Positions 3,370-32,057 of a stretch of 35,553 nucleotides of DNA are shown here, piece after piece. The number at the start of each line of letters is the position of its first letter. Within the stretch, counting starts at the first letter, position 1. Source of the stretch: Phycisphaerales bacterium (GTDB lineage Bacteria; Planctomycetota; Phycisphaerae; UBA1845); NCBI GenBank assembly GCA_020353195.1, contig CP070691.1, positions 2,481,175 to 2,516,727 on the forward strand, read 5' to 3'. The translations under genes and the position numbers were made by a program. Under the pieces are notes generated by a model. It searched no databases. It was not told the DNA's origin and saw nothing but the letters and a program-made list of their open reading frames with translations.

Positions 3370-3491
3370 AGGTCGCGTGCTCGGCGTGCCTGCTGTGGGC
3401 GGGTGACAGCCGGGCGCGGCAGTTTGCGGGGCGGGCATGTTCCGGGTGCCGGGCGGTGGTCTCGGCGTCGGGGGTGTCAAGCCCGAAGCTC

Positions 3492-3575
3492 GCGGATGTG
3501 GCGGAACTGGCAGACGCGCAGGCTTCAGGTGCCTGTGGGGGCAACCCCGTGGAGGTTCGACTCCTCTCATCCGCA
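3492..3575 (+). tRNA. tRNA-Leu (anticodon CAG)
   Basis: A class II tRNA of 84 bases. The acceptor arms GCGGATG and CATCCGC pair perfectly, the discriminator base is A, and CCA is not encoded. The anticodon stem CAGGC/GCCTG encloses the loop TTCAGGT, giving anticodon CAG (reads CUG). The long variable arm GGGGGCAACCCC and the T-arm GGAGG-TTCGACT-CCTCT are normal for leucine tRNAs. A good promoter lies upstream. It could serve as an integration site for the phage-like genes to its left; no repeated tRNA 3' end is visible within the window, and the other end of such an element would lie outside. Confidence 0.95.
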
Positions 3576-3701
3576 CGTTCCACATGCGCTTTCGTTAATC
3601 GTCGAATCAGGCACATCCAGCCTTTGTTGGGGGAGATGCGCAATGGCCCTCAGCGGAAGTCCGGTGTAACTGCGGCTCGAGAGGGGAATTGGCGTGGAGC
3701 C

Positions 3702-4103
3702 ATGTTGATCGCGGCGGGCGGGCACTTACCGGCGGGGCACTTCTATCTCACATGGTTGGTCGCGATCTTGTGTGTGCCGGGCGTACTTGTGGCGCGTCGC
3801 CTGCCTCGCATAGGGTTGGGCTTTGGCGAGGCGGGGTTGGTGGTTGGTGCTATCATCTTCGCGCATGCTATCGTGAACTATCCGAGGTGGATGGAGTCCG
3901 TATCTGAGGGTCTTTTTACGGTGGGCTTGTTTTGGGGTCCACTCCTGGGGCTCAGCGTTGTGGCGATCGTGCGCGCGCGCAGGGCCATTCGAGCGAGGGC
4001 CGACGGCGTCCCCAGGTGTCGGAACTGCGGCTACATTTTGACAGGTTTGTCTCGGCCGCGGTGTCCCGAATGCGGAACGCCGTTTCTCAGGGGAGATGCC
4101 TAG
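3702..4103 (+). CDS. Three-helix membrane protein with C-terminal zinc ribbon (copy 1)
   Basis: The start ATG at 3702 gives 133 residues and matches the start of the second copy. The frame is open upstream through the tRNA-Leu, but that part is only translated tRNA. A longer start at 3636, behind GGGGGAG, is possible. Three hydrophobic segments are visible at about residues 13-32, 40-60 and 72-92. A short basic stretch (RARRAIRARAD) follows, then a CxxC-x11-CxxC zinc ribbon with Cys 106, 109, 121 and 124 (CRNCGYILTGL ... CPECG). Membrane proteins with this GYxLxGL ribbon are frequent in planctomycete genomes as I recall, and none has a known function to my knowledge. The ribbon should face the cytoplasm under the positive-inside rule. 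The gene is unit 1 of a tandem duplication. Confidence 0.7.
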   Translation: MLIAAGGHLPAGHFYLTWLVAILCVPGVLVARRLPRIGLGFGEAGLVVGAIIFAHAIVNYPRWMESVSEGLFTVGLFWGPLLGLSVVAIVRARRAIRARADGVPRCRNCGYILTGLSRPRCPECGTPFLRGDA

Positions 4104-4164
4104 TGCGGCTTCCAGAAACGTCGTGTGACTTCTATAGGTCAGGTGCGGTGCCCACGCAAGCCGA

Positions 4165-4224
4165 GGGTGGCACGCACTTGTGTGGGCATCGACATGCCCA
4201 TGCAAGCGGTGGGGCATGCCACCC
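4165..4224. repeat. Inverted-repeat element at the end of duplication unit 1
   Basis: GGGTGGCA at 4165-4172 pairs with TGCCACCC at 4217-4224. Inside lies a perfect hairpin TGGGCAT-CGAC-ATGCCCA at 4183-4200. The whole could fold into a branched structure after the first zinc-ribbon gene and act as a transcription end or a REP-like mobile repeat. A related GGGTGGCACGC sequence is found again at about 8230. Confidence 0.5.
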
Positions 4225-4292
4225 ATCCGGGAAATGGCCCTGAGCGGAAGTCCGGTGTAACTGCAGCTCGAGAGAGGAATTGGCGTGGAGCC

Positions 4293-4697
4293 ATGTTGAC
4301 CGCACAGACGGCGCACATGCCGGTGGGAGACTTTCTTCTTGCATGGGCTGGCGCGATCTTCTTGGGTGTGCCGGGCGTACTCGTGGCGCGTCGTCTGCCT
4401 CACACGGCGGCAGTTTTTGGCGGGGTGGGCCTGGTGCTTGGTGCTGTCACCTTCGCGCATTCTGTCGTGGGCTATCCGAGGTGGATGGAGTCGGTATCTC
4501 ATGGTCTTTGTGGCGTGGCTTGTTTCTGGGGTCCGCTCCTGGGGCTCAGCGTTGTGGCGATCGTGCGCGCGCGCAGGGCAATTCGAGCGAGCGCCGACGG
4601 CGTCCCCAGGTGTCGGAACTGCGGCTACATTTTGACAGGTCTGTCTCGGCCGCGGTGCCCCGAATGCGGAACGCCGTTTCTCAGGGGAGATGCCTAG
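4293..4697 (+). CDS. Three-helix membrane protein with C-terminal zinc ribbon (copy 2)
   Basis: This 134-residue protein is the paralogue of the gene at 3702. From FWGPLL to the C-terminus (about 60 residues) it differs at a single position (Arg to Ser in the basic stretch), so the zinc ribbon is unchanged. The N-terminal two membrane helices differ at roughly half of the positions, including one inserted residue. The ribosome context (GTGGAGCC directly before the ATG) is the same in both copies. The strong conservation of the ribbon with a divergent membrane part suggests that the cytoplasmic end binds a common partner while the membrane part varies. Function is unknown; a signalling or assembly role is only a guess. 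Confidence 0.7.
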   Translation: MLTAQTAHMPVGDFLLAWAGAIFLGVPGVLVARRLPHTAAVFGGVGLVLGAVTFAHSVVGYPRWMESVSHGLCGVACFWGPLLGLSVVAIVRARRAIRASADGVPRCRNCGYILTGLSRPRCPECGTPFLRGDA

Positions 4698-23318: not shown

Positions 23319-24370
23319 CCGGGGGCTACACACTGTCGGAGCTGGCCAGGCGCGTTGACGCGTCCGTTCGCGGGAGCGGCGAGGTCGTCATCCGGGGTGT
23401 GAACACGGTGGCGGCCGCCGCGGCCGATCAGATCACGTGGGTAAGTGATGCCAAGTATCTGTCACAGCTCGGGCAGAGTCGAGCTGGCGCGGTGCTGGTG
23501 CCCGAGGCGTTCGGTGATGTGCCCATGCCGTCGCTGCGTGCGGTCTCGGTCGAGCGGGCGCTGTCGCGGCTTCTGTCGTTGTTCGCCCCGCCGGTGCCTC
23601 GACCCGAGCCCGGCGTGCATCCGAGCGCGGTCGTGGCCGAGAGCGCCGTGCTGGGGCGGGACGTGGCTGTCGGCCCGCACGTGGTGATCGGGGAGGGGGC
23701 GGTCATCGGTGATCGGAGCTGCCTGTGCGCCGGCGTGCACGTCGGTGCCGACTGCCGGATCGGGGTCGACTGCGTTTTCTGGGACCAGGCGGTGATTCGC
23801 GAGCGGTGCGAGATCGGCGACCGGGTGATCCTGCATCCGCACGTCGTGATCGGCAGCGACGGGTTCGGCTACTACTTTGCGGATGGCAAGCACAACAAGA
23901 TTCCTCACGGCGGTCGCGTCGTTGTGGGCGACGATGTGGAGATCGGGGCGGGCAGCACGCTGGACCGGTCCAAGGTCGGCGAGACCGTGGTGGGGGTCGG
24001 GACGAAGATTGATAATCTGGTCCAGGTCGGGCATAATGTGAAGATCGGGGCCCACTGCATCGTGGTCGCCCATTGCGGAATCGGCGGGAGCACGGTGTTG
24101 GGCGACGGCGTTGTACTCGGCGGTCAGGTGGGCCTGCGCGACAACATCACCCTGGGCGACGGCGTTGTGGTTTCGGCGTGCAGCTGCGTCAGCCGGGACG
24201 TGGCTCCGGGCAAGATGCTTGGCGGCATTCCGGCGTACGACCACGGACAGTATCTGCGAGTCCAGACGGTGATGCACAGGCTTCCCGACCTTGTCAGGCA
24301 GGTCAAGGAGCTCGCTAAGCGGGTGCAGAACCTTGAATCAGCAGACGATAAGCCAACCCGTGGAGCTTGA
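23315..24370 (+). CDS. lpxD: UDP-3-O-acylglucosamine N-acyltransferase LpxD
   Basis: LpxD adds the second acyl chain in lipid A synthesis. The 351-residue protein has the N-terminal uridine-binding domain (1-100, with the motif VRGVNTVAAAAADQITWVSD, cited as ADQITWVSDAKYL). From about 105 it has a left-handed beta helix of hexapeptide repeats such as IGDRVILHPHVVIGSDGFGY. The catalytic His is seen in NLVQVGHNVKIG. The GSDGFGY motif is specific for LpxD. The C-terminal helices (VMHRLPDLVRQVKELAKRV) are the acyl-carrier contact. It overlaps both neighbours: skp by 4 bases and lpxC-fabZ by 38 bases. Confidence 0.96.
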   Translation: MTGGYTLSELARRVDASVRGSGEVVIRGVNTVAAAAADQITWVSDAKYLSQLGQSRAGAVLVPEAFGDVPMPSLRAVSVERALSRLLSLFAPPVPRPEPGVHPSAVVAESAVLGRDVAVGPHVVIGEGAVIGDRSCLCAGVHVGADCRIGVDCVFWDQAVIRERCEIGDRVILHPHVVIGSDGFGYYFADGKHNKIPHGGRVVVGDDVEIGAGSTLDRSKVGETVVGVGTKIDNLVQVGHNVKIGAHCIVVAHCGIGGSTVLGDGVVLGGQVGLRDNITLGDGVVVSACSCVSRDVAPGKMLGGIPAYDHGQYLRVQTVMHRLPDLVRQVKELAKRVQNLESADDKPTRGA

Positions 24371-25649
24371 AGGGCGAGGTCTGTTCACGGGCGAGCACAC
24401 CACGCTCCGGTTCCACCCTGCCGAGCCGTACACCGGGCTGTATTTCGTGCGCACGGACCGGTCGCAGCCGGTCCGCATCGACGCCCGGGCGGAGAACATC
24501 GCCAAGCGGGCGCGCCGCACGTCACTGCGCAACGGTACGGTGTCCGTCGAGACGGTCGAGCACTGCCTGTCGGCGTGTGCGGGGCTGGGCATCGACAACC
24601 TCCGTATCGAGCTGACGGGCAGTGAGCTGCCTGCGCTGGACGGCAGTTGCCTGAGCTGGGTGGAGAAGCTGCAGGAGGCGGGGATCCGCGGGCAGGACGC
24701 CCCTCGCCAGCCGTTCGTCATTTCGCAGACGACCCGTGTGGTGGACGGCGACTGCGAACTGGTCGCGTTGCCGCCGCTGCGTTCGGACGCTGATCGGCTC
24801 GAGATCATCTACGATCTGGACTATGGTGAAGATAGTGTGATCGGCCGGCAGATTCACTCTCTCGTGCTGACGACTGAGTCGTTCGTCGAGCAGATTGCGC
24901 CGGCCCGCACGTTCGTGCTTCAGGAGGAGGCCGACCAACTGCTGGCCATGGGGCTGGGCACGCACCTGACGTACGCCGACATTCTCGTGTTCGGCGCGAA
25001 CGGCGTCATTGAGAACACGCTGCGGTTCCCCAACGAGTGTGTGCGTCACAAGATTCTCGACCTTGTCGGGGACCTGATGCTCGTGGGCCGGTTCGTGGTC
25101 GGCCGCATCTATGCCCGCAAGTCCGGTCACTCGTTGAATCTGGAGCTGGTCCGCCGCCTGGTGGAGCAGTCGCAGGAGCAACTGACGAGCAGCCTGCTGG
25201 TGTCGCCGCCGGCGTACGATATCCACCGTATCCAGCGGATCCTGCCGCACCGGTATCCGTTCCTGATGGTCGATCGGATTGTCGAGTTGGAGGGAAGCCA
25301 GCGGGCGGTGGGTATCAAGAACGTGACCGTCAACGAGGAGTTTTTCCAAGGGCACTACCCCGGTCAGCCGATCATGCCGGGGGTCTTGATCATCGAGGCC
25401 CTGGCCCAGATGGGCGGCATCTTGCTTTCGCAGGAGTTGGAGCACAAGGGTATGGTGGCGGTGCTGCTGAGTTTAGACAGGGTGAAGTTTCGCCGCCCGG
25501 TCGTGCCGGGCGACCAGTTGATCCTGACGGCGCAGGCCATCCGGATCGCGTCGCGACGAGGTCACGTTCGTTGCAGCGCCCGTGTGGGCAACGAGCCGGT
25601 ATGCGAGGCGGAGATCCGGTTTGCGCTGACGGACGCCGAACCGGTTTGA
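24333..25649 (+). CDS. lpxC: LpxC-FabZ fusion: deacetylase plus hydroxyacyl-ACP dehydratase
   Basis: One polypeptide with two enzymes. The likely start is TTG at 24333 (MNQQTISQPVELEGRGLFTG), inside the end of lpxD, giving 438 residues. LpxC, the committed step of lipid A synthesis, covers about 1-285: SVETVEHCLSACAGLGIDN with zinc ligand His77, ELPALDGS with the catalytic Glu, RHKILDLVGDLML with the other zinc ligands, and SGHSLNLEL with the catalytic His. FabZ, the dehydratase of fatty acid synthesis, covers about 295-438: LPHRYPFLMVDRIVELE with the catalytic His and HYPGQPIMPGVLIIEALAQ with the catalytic Glu. Both active sites look intact. The fusion is well known in Bacteroidota and occurs in some planctomycetes. 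No ribosome site is obvious, so translation may depend on lpxD. Confidence 0.95.
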   Translation: MNQQTISQPVELEGRGLFTGEHTTLRFHPAEPYTGLYFVRTDRSQPVRIDARAENIAKRARRTSLRNGTVSVETVEHCLSACAGLGIDNLRIELTGSELPALDGSCLSWVEKLQEAGIRGQDAPRQPFVISQTTRVVDGDCELVALPPLRSDADRLEIIYDLDYGEDSVIGRQIHSLVLTTESFVEQIAPARTFVLQEEADQLLAMGLGTHLTYADILVFGANGVIENTLRFPNECVRHKILDLVGDLMLVGRFVVGRIYARKSGHSLNLELVRRLVEQSQEQLTSSLLVSPPAYDIHRIQRILPHRYPFLMVDRIVELEGSQRAVGIKNVTVNEEFFQGHYPGQPIMPGVLIIEALAQMGGILLSQELEHKGMVAVLLSLDRVKFRRPVVPGDQLILTAQAIRIASRRGHVRCSARVGNEPVCEAEIRFALTDAEPV

Positions 25650-28645: not shown

Positions 28646-29221
28646 CTACGGCCGGACGGCGTCCCACAACCACTGGATGTTATCTGCAAGGTCGTCGAGG
28701 GTCGCCATCGCCTCGGTGTCCTGGCTGACTTCACCCTCCTTGCGGCCGTGGCCGACGTTCCAGTAGCTGCTGCCCGGTACGACCATGCCGTTGATCAGGA
28801 ACCACATGTTCAGCTCGGCGAACGTCAGCAGTTCGCCCGCCCGCCGGGCGACGACGACGGCCGCACCGATCTTGCGCCGCAGGAATCCATCGTTCACCCG
28901 GCTGACGAAGCCGATGCGGTCCATGTAGGCCTTGATCTGCCCCGTCACCGATCCGAAATACACCGGGGAGCCCAGGAGGATCACGTCGGCCGCTCGGGTC
29001 CGCTCGATCAACGCGTTGCCGTCGTCCGGGTAACCGTGGCACTTGCCGTCCTTTTTCCGCATGCAGGTCATGCATCCGCTGCATGGGGACAGGTCCATGC
29101 CGTGCAGGTGGGCCTCGTCGACGGTGGCACCTCCTCTTGTCAGCGGCGCACATACGCGCCGGAGCATTACGCTGGTGTTGCCGTCCTTGCGGGGACTTCC
29201 GTTGACGCTGAGAACCTTCAT
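28646..29221 (-). CDS. Iron-sulfur flavoprotein / flavodoxin-fold NADPH-dependent FMN reductase
   Basis: A 191-residue flavodoxin-fold protein with a strong ribosome site (GGAGGAGG) just before the ATG. The FMN phosphate loop is GSPRKDGNTS (8-17), and GSPVYFGSVTGQIKAYMDR (84-102) is the flavin-contact region. Between them lies a compact cysteine motif, Cys47-x2-Cys50-x2-Cys53-x7-Cys61, matching the CX2CX2CX4-7C pattern of archaeal Isf proteins that hold a 4Fe-4S cluster. Isf-type proteins pass electrons from ferredoxin to oxygen, peroxide or other acceptors. With Ni-SOD and azoreductase in the same group, a role in removing oxygen species is plausible; the real acceptor is unknown. Confidence 0.88.
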   Translation of the reverse strand: MKVLSVNGSPRKDGNTSVMLRRVCAPLTRGGATVDEAHLHGMDLSPCSGCMTCMRKKDGKCHGYPDDGNALIERTRAADVILLGSPVYFGSVTGQIKAYMDRIGFVSRVNDGFLRRKIGAAVVVARRAGELLTFAELNMWFLINGMVVPGSSYWNVGHGRKEGEVSQDTEAMATLDDLADNIQWLWDAVRP

Positions 29222-29367
29222 GAGCCTCCTCCATCTGCGCGGAGTGTGTGAGGTATCGTAGCGAGATCATACTCGCCCGCCGGGACTCCGCCAGGTGCGT
29301 TATCACGCGGGCTGTTCTCGCCGGAGCCCGGCCCGTTCCTCGGACAGCGTTGCAGAGGCTCGGCCGG

Positions 29368-30357
29368 TCACGCATAGGCGTTCAGGGCCTTCATGTATTG
29401 ACCGCGCTCGAAGGCGGCTGGATCAGGGCAGGACCGCTGGTTCATGATGCCCTGCAGTTGTTGTACGCTCTCGTATTCGTGGTCCGCCATCCACGTGCCC
29501 ATCTCGTCGAGAATGCGGGCGGTCGTGCATACGCCGTCGCGCAACAGCGCGGCACAAAGCTGGGTCGCGTCCGCGCCGGCCATCAGCAGCTTGAGCACGT
29601 CGAGTGACGTGTAGACCCCGGTCGTCGCGGCCAGGCTGGCTTTGACCAACGGATCGAGGATGGCAATCCAGCGGAGCGGCATCCGCATCTCGTGCGGGGC
29701 GCTGAGTACGACCTGCGGAACGACCTCCAATGCGTCCAGGTCGATATCGGGCTGGTGGAAGCGGTTGAACAGTACGAGTCCGTCGGCTCCCTCATCGTCG
29801 AGGCGCTTCGCGAAGTTCGCGAAGGAGCTGAAGTAGGGCGTCAGCTTGACTGAGACCGGCAGCCTCACGGTCCGCTTCACCCCGCGGAGGATCTCGACAT
29901 AGCGGTGCTCGATCGCGGCGGCGTCGATCGTCGGGTCGGTGGCGATGCTGTAGATGTTCAGTTCGAGCGCGTCCGCCCCGGCATCCTGCATCTTTTTCGC
30001 GTACTCGGTCCATCCGCCGGTGCTCGTACAGTTCAGGCTGGCGATCACGGGGATTCCCACGGCCTTGGTGACGGCGGTCAGGTGGTCCAAATGCTGCTCT
30101 GGTCCGCGGCGGTAGTCAGCCTGGGCGGGGAAGTACGACAGTGCCTCGGCGAAGCTTTCAGTGCCGAGCTGCATGAAGTGGTCATGCGCCGCGTCTTCGT
30201 GCTCTATCTGTTCCTGGAACAGCGAGTGAATCACGACCGCACCGACGCCCGCATCCTCCAACTGGCGGACGGAGCTTACCTCCCGACTGAGCGGCGACGC
30301 CGCCGCAACCAGGGGATTCTTCAAGTCCAGGCCGAGATACTTCGTGGACATGTCCAT
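29368..30357 (-). CDS. Dihydroorotate-dehydrogenase-like FMN protein
   Basis: A 329-residue TIM-barrel flavoprotein of the PyrD superfamily. The start is the ATG at 30357 with GAGGA about 9 bases upstream. It keeps GIPVIASLNC, the FMN-binding lysine in LPVSVKLTPYF (Lys171) and GADGLVLFNRF. However, the catalytic stretch that reads N-x-S-C-P-N in true class 1 enzymes is ELNIYSIATD here, and the lysine of the AxVTKS-type motif is His44 (VVIHSLF). It is therefore unlikely to oxidise dihydroorotate. Such DHOD-like proteins are often found apart from pyrimidine genes, and no other pyr gene lies here. It sits between Ni-SOD and the iron-sulfur flavoprotein on one strand. Confidence 0.85.
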   Translation of the reverse strand: MDMSTKYLGLDLKNPLVAAASPLSREVSSVRQLEDAGVGAVVIHSLFQEQIEHEDAAHDHFMQLGTESFAEALSYFPAQADYRRGPEQHLDHLTAVTKAVGIPVIASLNCTSTGGWTEYAKKMQDAGADALELNIYSIATDPTIDAAAIEHRYVEILRGVKRTVRLPVSVKLTPYFSSFANFAKRLDDEGADGLVLFNRFHQPDIDLDALEVVPQVVLSAPHEMRMPLRWIAILDPLVKASLAATTGVYTSLDVLKLLMAGADATQLCAALLRDGVCTTARILDEMGTWMADHEYESVQQLQGIMNQRSCPDPAAFERGQYMKALNAYA

Positions 30358-30441
30358 GGTGCACTATCCTCTCGCTTGCGGTTTGGCCGGGTTGTGCGGT
30401 ATCGCGATACGCGCCGGCTCAGACAATCTGCTGATCATCCG

Positions 30442-30921
30442 CTAATAGTGTGTTGCCAGCTTGTCGATCGCCTTGTCCAGCGCCGCTGCGGTCGCCGGGT
30501 CGGCGGATTGCTTGGCTTTCATCGCGGCCACCATCACCGCATGATGATCGGCCAGCTTTTTGAGATACGCGTCGTAACCGTCGGCCCCCGGCGCAACGGG
30601 TTTTACCTTCTGCGTCAGGAAGTACTCTGAAACCGTGCTGATGATGTCAGACGCGTGGGCCTCTTTCGTGGCGACCCACCGTGCGGCCTGATTGAAGGCC
30701 TGGGCATCCTGTTTGCCGGCCAGCTCGGTGATGCTGGCGATCGCCTTGGCGACTGTGGCGGCATCCTCCTTCAGGTGTTTGATGCGTGCGGCATCATCGT
30801 AGATTCCGCACGGCACCTGACAGTGGGCCTCGGCTTTGCCCTGGTGAATCGCGAGGAATCCGGCCGCCACCAGGAGCGTGCTTCCAATCATCGACAGACT
30901 GATCATACCGTACCGATTCAT
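30442..30921 (-). CDS. sodN: Nickel superoxide dismutase, exported form
   Basis: Ni-SOD turns superoxide into oxygen and peroxide. The ATG at 30921 has AGGAG about 8 bases upstream, giving 159 residues. Residues 1-32 form a Sec signal peptide: a basic start, the hydrophobic core ISLSMIGSTLLVAAGFLAI and the end KAEA, a perfect AxA site. The next residues are HCQVPCGIYDD, the nickel hook: His1, Cys2, Pro5, Cys6 and Tyr9 of mature Ni-SOD. The usual Asp3 is Gln. The mature part of 127 residues, close to the normal 117, has the expected four-helix pattern, with IKHLKEDAATVAKAI and WVATKEAHASDII. Signal peptidase alone would create the required N-terminal His. No separate maturation protease gene is near. 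Confidence 0.92.
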   Translation of the reverse strand: MNRYGMISLSMIGSTLLVAAGFLAIHQGKAEAHCQVPCGIYDDAARIKHLKEDAATVAKAIASITELAGKQDAQAFNQAARWVATKEAHASDIISTVSEYFLTQKVKPVAPGADGYDAYLKKLADHHAVMVAAMKAKQSADPATAAALDKAIDKLATHY

Positions 30922-31033
30922 TCTCGTTCTCCTGTGGACCACAAACATCGCGGATCAGAAACCACCTAGGCACGCCCGCGCCGGCGTGGGTCTTCAACAG
31001 CGCGTGGATGACGGCAGAAAGTGTGCCTCTTCT

Positions 31034-31663
31034 CTAGAAAGCCTCCGCAACCCGTTTCGCCTCTTCTGCTGCGGCGGACTTGGCATTCTCGACGGTTTTC
31101 GGATCGCCCAAGGTCGGCTCGACAACAATCGAGCGAATATCGGCAAATCCAACGAATCGGAGTAGCGTCTCCAGATAGGGCTTCTGGAAGTCCAGGCCTC
31201 TGGCTTGCTCGTTGCTGGAGTATTCTCCGCCGCGCGTGTAGATGACGGCAACCGGCTTGCCGGTCACCAGCCCGGTGTAGCCGGTATCCGGCGAGAAGCT
31301 GAACGCCAGGCCAGGCTGTGTGATGATGTCGAGCAGGTGTTTGAGCTTGTAGGGAATGCCGAAGTTCCACATCGGCACGCTGAATAGGTATTTATCTGCT
31401 GCATTGAACCGGTTGAAGCTGTCCGTGACCGCCCGCCACGCGGAGGCCTGTTCCGGCGAGTGCTCCAGGCCGTGCAGTATCTGGTACTTTGCGTGCACGG
31501 TCTGTCCGTCGAACTCCGGCAGCGACCCGGTCCATACGTCCCAGGTTTCCACTTCATCACCGGGATGCGAAGCCCGGTACGAGCCAAGGAACACTTTGGC
31601 GACGACGATCGACGTCGACCGCTCCTTTCGCGGCGATGCTTCCAGGTGCAGTAACTTGCTCAT
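31034..31663 (-). CDS. azoR: FMN-dependent NADH-azoreductase
   Basis: AzoR-family enzymes reduce quinones and azo compounds with NADH and protect against thiol stress. The ATG at 31663 (MSKLLHLEASPRKERSTS) is preceded by GGAGGG with 6-base spacing and gives 209 residues, the normal length. The FMN phosphate loop is EASPRKERSTS; the flavin-ring contact is PMWNFGIPYKLKHLLD, and the third loop is YTRGGEYS. It is the first gene of the minus-strand redox group, 112 bp upstream of sodN. No regulator gene is adjacent, so control of the group cannot be read from the window. Confidence 0.93.
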   Translation of the reverse strand: MSKLLHLEASPRKERSTSIVVAKVFLGSYRASHPGDEVETWDVWTGSLPEFDGQTVHAKYQILHGLEHSPEQASAWRAVTDSFNRFNAADKYLFSVPMWNFGIPYKLKHLLDIITQPGLAFSFSPDTGYTGLVTGKPVAVIYTRGGEYSSNEQARGLDFQKPYLETLLRFVGFADIRSIVVEPTLGDPKTVENAKSAAAEEAKRVAEAF

Positions 31664-32057
31664 GTGCGACCCTCCCATCTTGTCGCCAGTCACTTTCAGC
31701 CAGGCACTGTTGGCCACGCCAACGAGCGCGGTCGTCCAGGCGAGGCCGGCCGGCGCTGCCCCACCGGCTCGGACCTTGCACCGGATATGGTCCGTTTACC
31801 GGTCCAATGCCGAGTACGCTAGCGAAAGCAACTCCCAGAATCCAGCGAGCTTCGTGCGTCTCTGTGGGATGCCAGGCCGCTCGCTCTTTCGTCGTCCGCC
31901 AGTCGCGCCAGGACCGCAATGGGCGGTCGGGCGCGTTGTCGTACGCGCTGGTGAGTGATATGTCGCCGCCCAGGTGTTCCGGCGCCCGGGAAGTTCAACT
32001 TCGCCCTATCTCTAGTGAGAAGCGACGGAAGCGAATTGGCGGATCATCACAGGTCAT
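31664..32057. other. 394-bp gap without a recognisable gene
   Basis: Frames here give only Arg/Pro-rich sequence without pattern. The region should hold the promoter of the azoR-sodN group on the minus strand, but no pair of boxes was convincing. Confidence 0.4.

Follow-up and report, generated by a model that had tools for sequence, protein, structure and literature searches.

A Ni-SOD-family protein with a predicted signal peptide ending at the nickel hook belongs to a widespread exported branch

Introduction

The closest described systems are the SodN/SodX pairs of Streptomyces and of marine cyanobacteria, with which the protein presented here shares the Sod_Ni family, the HCxxPCGxY hook, a small-x-small motif before His1 and, as the probable cutting enzyme, a peptidase of the S26 family. 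Classical SodN is a cytoplasmic protein with a short, non-hydrophobic leader, an Asp at position 3 and an adjacent sodX gene, whereas the protein studied here has a Sec signal peptide, Gln3 and no SodX. Planctomycete, verrucomicrobial and other sodN genes were listed by Boden et al. 2021, who suggested that cyanobacteria without sodX are possibly unable to use Ni-SOD (PMC8346466).

The same variant is present in another planctomycete, Roseiconus lacunae, whose Ni-SOD (WP_230780104.1) carries a signal peptide that stops immediately ahead of His1. In the available part of Franco Cairo et al. 2025 (PMC12537917), the signal peptide and His of this protein were used as bait, by which many Ni-SODs were recovered, and a Ni-SOD signal peptide ending at His1 is thus already in print. 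The protein served there purely as bait: that part covers neither SodX loss, clade history, compartment pattern nor second shell, and does not discuss SodX or Ni-SOD maturation. The named fusobacterial strain Ilyobacter polytropus has a similar protein (WP_013389192.1), in which the signal peptide MNKLVLILSLLILIPNYLFA stands directly before HCEVPCGIY; it differs in having Glu3 instead of Gln3, and shows 46% identity across 68% of the query. The ubiquitin-NiSOD fusions of marine algae (PMC6332867) likewise have a different N-terminal module before the Ni-SOD domain, but they are eukaryotic, carry ubiquitin in place of a signal peptide, and His1 would presumably be released from them. Compared with this literature, outside which the diversity survey of Dupont et al. 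2008 falls, what is new is the clean split into two branches, the pattern of compartments, the rebuilding of the second shell and the occurrence of six relatives that have no signal-peptidase site.

Results

The window, meaning the whole stretch of DNA that was analysed, comprises 35,553 nucleotides from a Phycisphaerales bacterium (assembly GCA_020353195.1, contig CP070691.1, positions 2,481,175 to 2,516,727). Its minus strand codes at 30442..30921 for a predicted exported Ni-SOD-family precursor of 159 amino acids plus stop, with a Shine-Dalgarno-like AGGAGA 6 nt 5' of the ATG (30928..30933, minus strand). Translated from 30921 to 30442, the frame reads MNRYGMISLSMIGSTLLVAAGFLAIHQGKAEA followed by HCQVPCGIYDD. 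The Pfam Sod_Ni profile PF09055 matches the protein with 111.4 bits (curated cut-off 25, E 5.8e-32), and its hook carries the H1, C2, P5, C6, G7 and Y9 of the superfamily. The score against the NCBIfam sodN equivalog TIGR02753 is 36.6 bits, under the cut-off of 90, and the best E in a single-sequence search against the Streptomyces crystal-structure sequences is 0.063. The protein is therefore only distantly related to the characterised enzyme, and since it stays below the TIGR02753 cut-off it was filed as a member of a sister branch and not as classical SodN. A promoter and terminator scan at the locus gave no signal exceeding that of shuffles.

The gene lies in a same-strand run of flavin-linked genes (28646-31717, minus strand) with azoreductase-like, dihydroorotate dehydrogenase-like and FMN reductase-like members. 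On one side is an FMN-dependent NADH-azoreductase-like flavodoxin-fold protein (31034..31717, minus strand; PF02525, E 2.1e-43), and 84 bp downstream is a dihydroorotate dehydrogenase-like protein of the PRK07565 type (29368..30357, minus strand; NF005741, 465.8 bits, cut-off 303). Beyond antisense reading frames and close relatives, no conserved neighbours of the Ni-SOD gene were found; as the arrangement is not kept in relatives, the flanking flavoprotein genes were rejected as partners. Elsewhere in the window, a fused LpxC-FabZ-like frame (24291-25649, plus strand) lies beside LpxD-, LpxA- and BamA-like genes; these identities, assigned by eye, suggest an outer membrane and therefore a periplasm. 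Two tandem frames at 3456-4697 (plus strand), with near-identical stretches and a common C-terminal zinc-ribbon-like motif CRNCGYILTGLSRPRCPECGTPF, are a recent duplication.

Ni-SOD genes were gathered from 392 Planctomycetota genomes (55 carriers), from 26 loci of a wide genome collection and from extra stretches, other phyla being sampled through the related-loci collection and one plasmid match. This gave 83 distinct sequences, 81 of which (67 exported, 14 classical) entered the alignment and the tree. The exported branch, with a hydrophobic leader and the hook HCQ or HCE, accounts for 69 of the 83. The remaining 14 are of the classical (leader) type, with the hook HCD and a short leader devoid of a hydrophobic core (9 to 20 residues, apart from one longer start call, L013). 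In the maximum-likelihood tree the two types fall on opposite sides of one branch (support 100/96), and none of 500 shuffles was as clustered as the observed split. Outside Planctomycetota, exported members occur in Verrucomicrobiota, Hirschia maritima (Pseudomonadota), a Bacteroidales bacterium, Desulfobacula and a Myxococcales bacterium; because metagenome bins are among them, an individual placement could result from mis-binning. Ilyobacter polytropus (Fusobacteriota), which stands outside the tree, is also of the exported type, and three genomes hold both types (G100, G169 and G191). The exported Ni-SOD of the window is thus not a one-off; it belongs to a widespread branch.

The initial annotation had described an exported Ni-SOD whose Sec-type signal peptide ends in AEA at the hook, and this description agrees with what was found. 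The leader MNRYGMISLSMIGSTLLVAAGFLAIHQGKAEA spans 32 codons (30826..30921, minus strand) and has an n-region with a charge of +1, an uncharged core of 22 residues and a c-region of 7 residues ending in AEA. A positive n-region, a hydrophobic core and small residues at -3/-1 are the features of a Sec substrate of signal peptidase I. The Tat twin-arginine motif is absent from the protein, the n-region MNRYGM having one Arg only. The next nine residues, HCQVPCGIY (30799..30825, minus strand), would begin a mature protein of 127 amino acids plus stop (30442..30825, minus strand), as deduced from two alignments.

The position of the site is kept among relatives. A strict small-x-small site lies directly before His1 in 53 of the 69 exported sequences and in all 14 classical ones, and under a relaxed definition a compatible site stands exactly there in 62/69 and 14/14, respectively. 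At any one of nine other offsets, the strict site was found in at most 13 of the 69. The arrangement of AxA followed by His is therefore far above chance, and it makes cleavage to His1 by signal peptidase I, as the initial annotation supposed, a reasonable expectation. Small residues at -3/-1 in both groups are as expected if an S26-family peptidase cuts both; from the known specificities, SodX would cut the short leader in the cytoplasm and signal peptidase I the signal peptide at the membrane. Six relatives (L104, L107, L108, L112, L114 and L115) have a hydrophobic leader but PAF, SPR, AMW, PPL, RAW and RAR before His, and all six fall in one seven-member clade of the tree. The residue next to His1 is bulky or carries a charge in each of them (F, R, W, L, W and R), a context in which signal peptidase I is not expected to cut, so that ordinary cleavage could not make the hook in these proteins. 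Two further sequences have unusual frames: in L113 (G380) the leader is 52 residues long and includes an extended polar segment ahead of His, and the exported-type frame of L118 (G006) continues past the hook to 452 residues, which points to a fusion or read-through.

In a profile search of the flanks, an S26 (SodX-like) protease frame adjoins 13 of the 14 leader-type genes, the remaining one (L003) being cut by a contig end. The same search found none next to the 69 exported genes, whose flanks measure about 1.5 to 5 kb and in some cases end at contig ends. Among the 392 genomes, SodX scores above its cut-off in nine, always directly beside a leader-type gene, and in no genome with the exported type alone. 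The genome of the window is a single-contig assembly of 3.79 Mb with an estimated completeness of about 78% and one Ni-SOD gene. Its place in Planctomycetota agrees with G013, a genome listed in its phylum, whose Ni-SOD sequence is identical to that of L050, a contig named as Planctomycetota. The search for sodX in this genome that the initial annotation had proposed found none at the curated cut-off; the sole weak SodX-like match (21.7 bits, C1:714429-714524) falls within the gene for signal peptidase I (C1:713955-714542, 157.8 bits). A second signal-peptidase-like gene is located at about C1:3033146-3034825.

The hook residues H1, C2, P5, C6 and G7 are shared without exception by the 81 aligned relatives, which suggests that a free His1 is under selection in both branches. 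Residue 3 is Asp in 14/14 classical sequences and either Gln (39/67) or Glu (28/67) in the exported ones. The window protein had been credited with an altered hook, a claim that was abandoned because Gln or Glu, with Gln the commoner, occupies this position throughout the exported branch; Gln3 is ruled out as an individual alteration. Relative to the Streptomyces sequence, the 67 exported members keep Arg39, Lys44 and Tyr62, and position 9 is Tyr in 60 and Phe in 7. They all have His at the position of Arg47 and Leu or Met at that of Lys64; in the window protein, Gln3, His57 and Leu70 stand for Asp3, Arg47 and Lys64. Arg47 is missing from the leader type too, where Gln is found in 13/14. The altered positions correspond to what we take to be second-shell or channel residues of the Streptomyces enzyme, and since the changes are fixed in the exported branch, homology by itself is not sufficient ground for assuming catalysis there. 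At least three His are found in the last 20 residues of 31/67 exported members (e.g. L018, L021, L029 and L110) and of 0/14 classical ones (p 0.0006, in a statistic that ignores relatedness). Such tails are possible metal-capturing candidates; the window protein is without one.

Should the leader type work in the cytoplasm, genomes that carry it would be expected to do without Fe/Mn-SOD, which would not be expected of those with the exported type. From presence lists compiled by hand from the search tables, Fe/Mn-SOD was found in 1 of 14 leader-type genomes of Planctomycetota, in 28 of 41 with the exported type only and in 254 of 337 with neither (leader versus others, p 3e-7; exported versus others, p 0.34). 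When genomes were collapsed by family, the counts were 0/9 for the leader type versus 16/23 for the exported type (Fisher p 0.0008). In Planctomycetota, then, the classical type replaces the cytoplasmic Fe/Mn-SOD and the exported type does not, which gives independent support to the view that the exported branch resides elsewhere in the cell. Four same-class exported-type genomes that lack Fe/Mn-SOD (G127, G287, G311 and G331) each have a superoxide reductase. Cu/Zn-SOD, which is usually periplasmic in Gram-negative bacteria, is found in 3 of 41 exported-type genomes, 5 of 14 leader-type genomes and 70 of 337 others (exported versus others p 0.037, again ignoring relatedness); its rare co-occurrence with the exported type fits a periplasmic enzyme. 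In the genome of the window, about 78% complete, neither Fe/Mn-SOD, Cu/Zn-SOD nor superoxide reductase was detected, which would leave the cytoplasm without a known superoxide scavenger. The nickel importers NicO and CbiM were likewise not detected in this assembly.

Discussion

The predicted signal peptide, the position of its cleavage site, the missing SodX and the history of two branches can be read from the sequences themselves. Together they make it quite probable that the window gene codes for a periplasmic enzyme of the Ni-SOD type whose maturation is built into its export. Sec would take the precursor through the inner membrane, and signal peptidase I would cut it after AEA, freeing His1 as the N-terminus; the HCxxPC hook would then bind nickel outside the cytoplasm, where the mature protein would remove superoxide. 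As such a cut leaves His1 free, no SodX would be needed. We infer from the comparison that signal peptidase I makes the cut, that the protein resides in the periplasm, that it takes up nickel outside the cytoplasm and that it acts as a dismutase; the literature search found no protein chemistry on the exported branch. The signal peptide ending at the hook, on which the initial annotation had based a coupling of export with maturation, is real and conserved; the novelty of the coupling is limited, because the available part of Franco Cairo et al. 2025 already uses a signal peptide plus His as bait (PMC12537917).

Against this explanation we counted the second-shell changes that run through the whole branch (Asp3 replaced by Gln/Glu, Arg47 by His and Lys64 by Leu/Met), the score below the TIGR02753 cut-off, the six relatives without a signal peptidase site and the apparent lack of another superoxide scavenger in the genome of the window at its estimated 78% completeness. 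The first two of these would also be expected of a protein that, although exported and cut to His1, has ceased to be a nickel SOD: its second shell would be rebuilt, and it would bind copper or some other metal or serve a different purpose, for instance metal binding. Exported binders of Cu or Ni with an N-terminal His that are not SODs do exist (DUF4198 and CopC, according to the available part of PMC12537917), and the His-rich C-termini confined to the exported side, together with the failure to find NicO and CbiM in the incomplete genome of the window, point the same way. We nevertheless consider this unlikely, since every primary hook residue is invariant, the Tyr positions are kept (Tyr or Phe at 9, Tyr at 62), and the rarity of Cu/Zn-SOD in exported-type genomes fits a SOD role.

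The six exceptional relatives bear on two other readings, both of which we regard as very improbable. Their leaders could suggest an uncleaved membrane anchor, from which His1 is never freed and in which the hook does not do what it does in classical Ni-SOD; yet in the great majority of the branch small -3/-1 residues stand exactly before His and not at other offsets, and the hook is invariant. The same six would need something else than signal peptidase I, if they are matured at all, and a dedicated protease encoded elsewhere, on which maturation still depends, could lie in the part of the window's genome that its completeness of about 78% leaves out. Such an unlinked protease is hard to reconcile with the finding that no exported-only genome has a SodX above the cut-off and that signal peptidase I is present. 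The feature seen in the window is real and conserved. It is most likely a Ni-SOD that acts in the periplasm after maturation by signal peptidase I, and it represents a variation within a familiar enzyme family, not a system of a new type. Going beyond this, we tentatively raise the rather doubtful idea that the exported branch is a distinct periplasmic metalloenzyme, loaded with metal outside the cytoplasm without a dedicated maturation factor, in which the fixed second-shell changes would alter metal preference or mechanism with respect to classical Ni-SOD.

Nickel enzymes are mostly thought to be loaded in the cytoplasm by dedicated helpers. If the proposed maturation is correct, a metal site gained by the removal of a signal peptide alone would be a helper-free route for a Sec-exported nickel enzyme. 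A missing sodX should then not be read as a missing active Ni-SOD, as has been suggested for cyanobacteria (PMC8346466). Location would also become a testable part of superoxide defence, in which the classical type stands in for Fe/Mn-SOD in the cytoplasm and the exported type behaves more like a substitute for periplasmic Cu/Zn-SOD.
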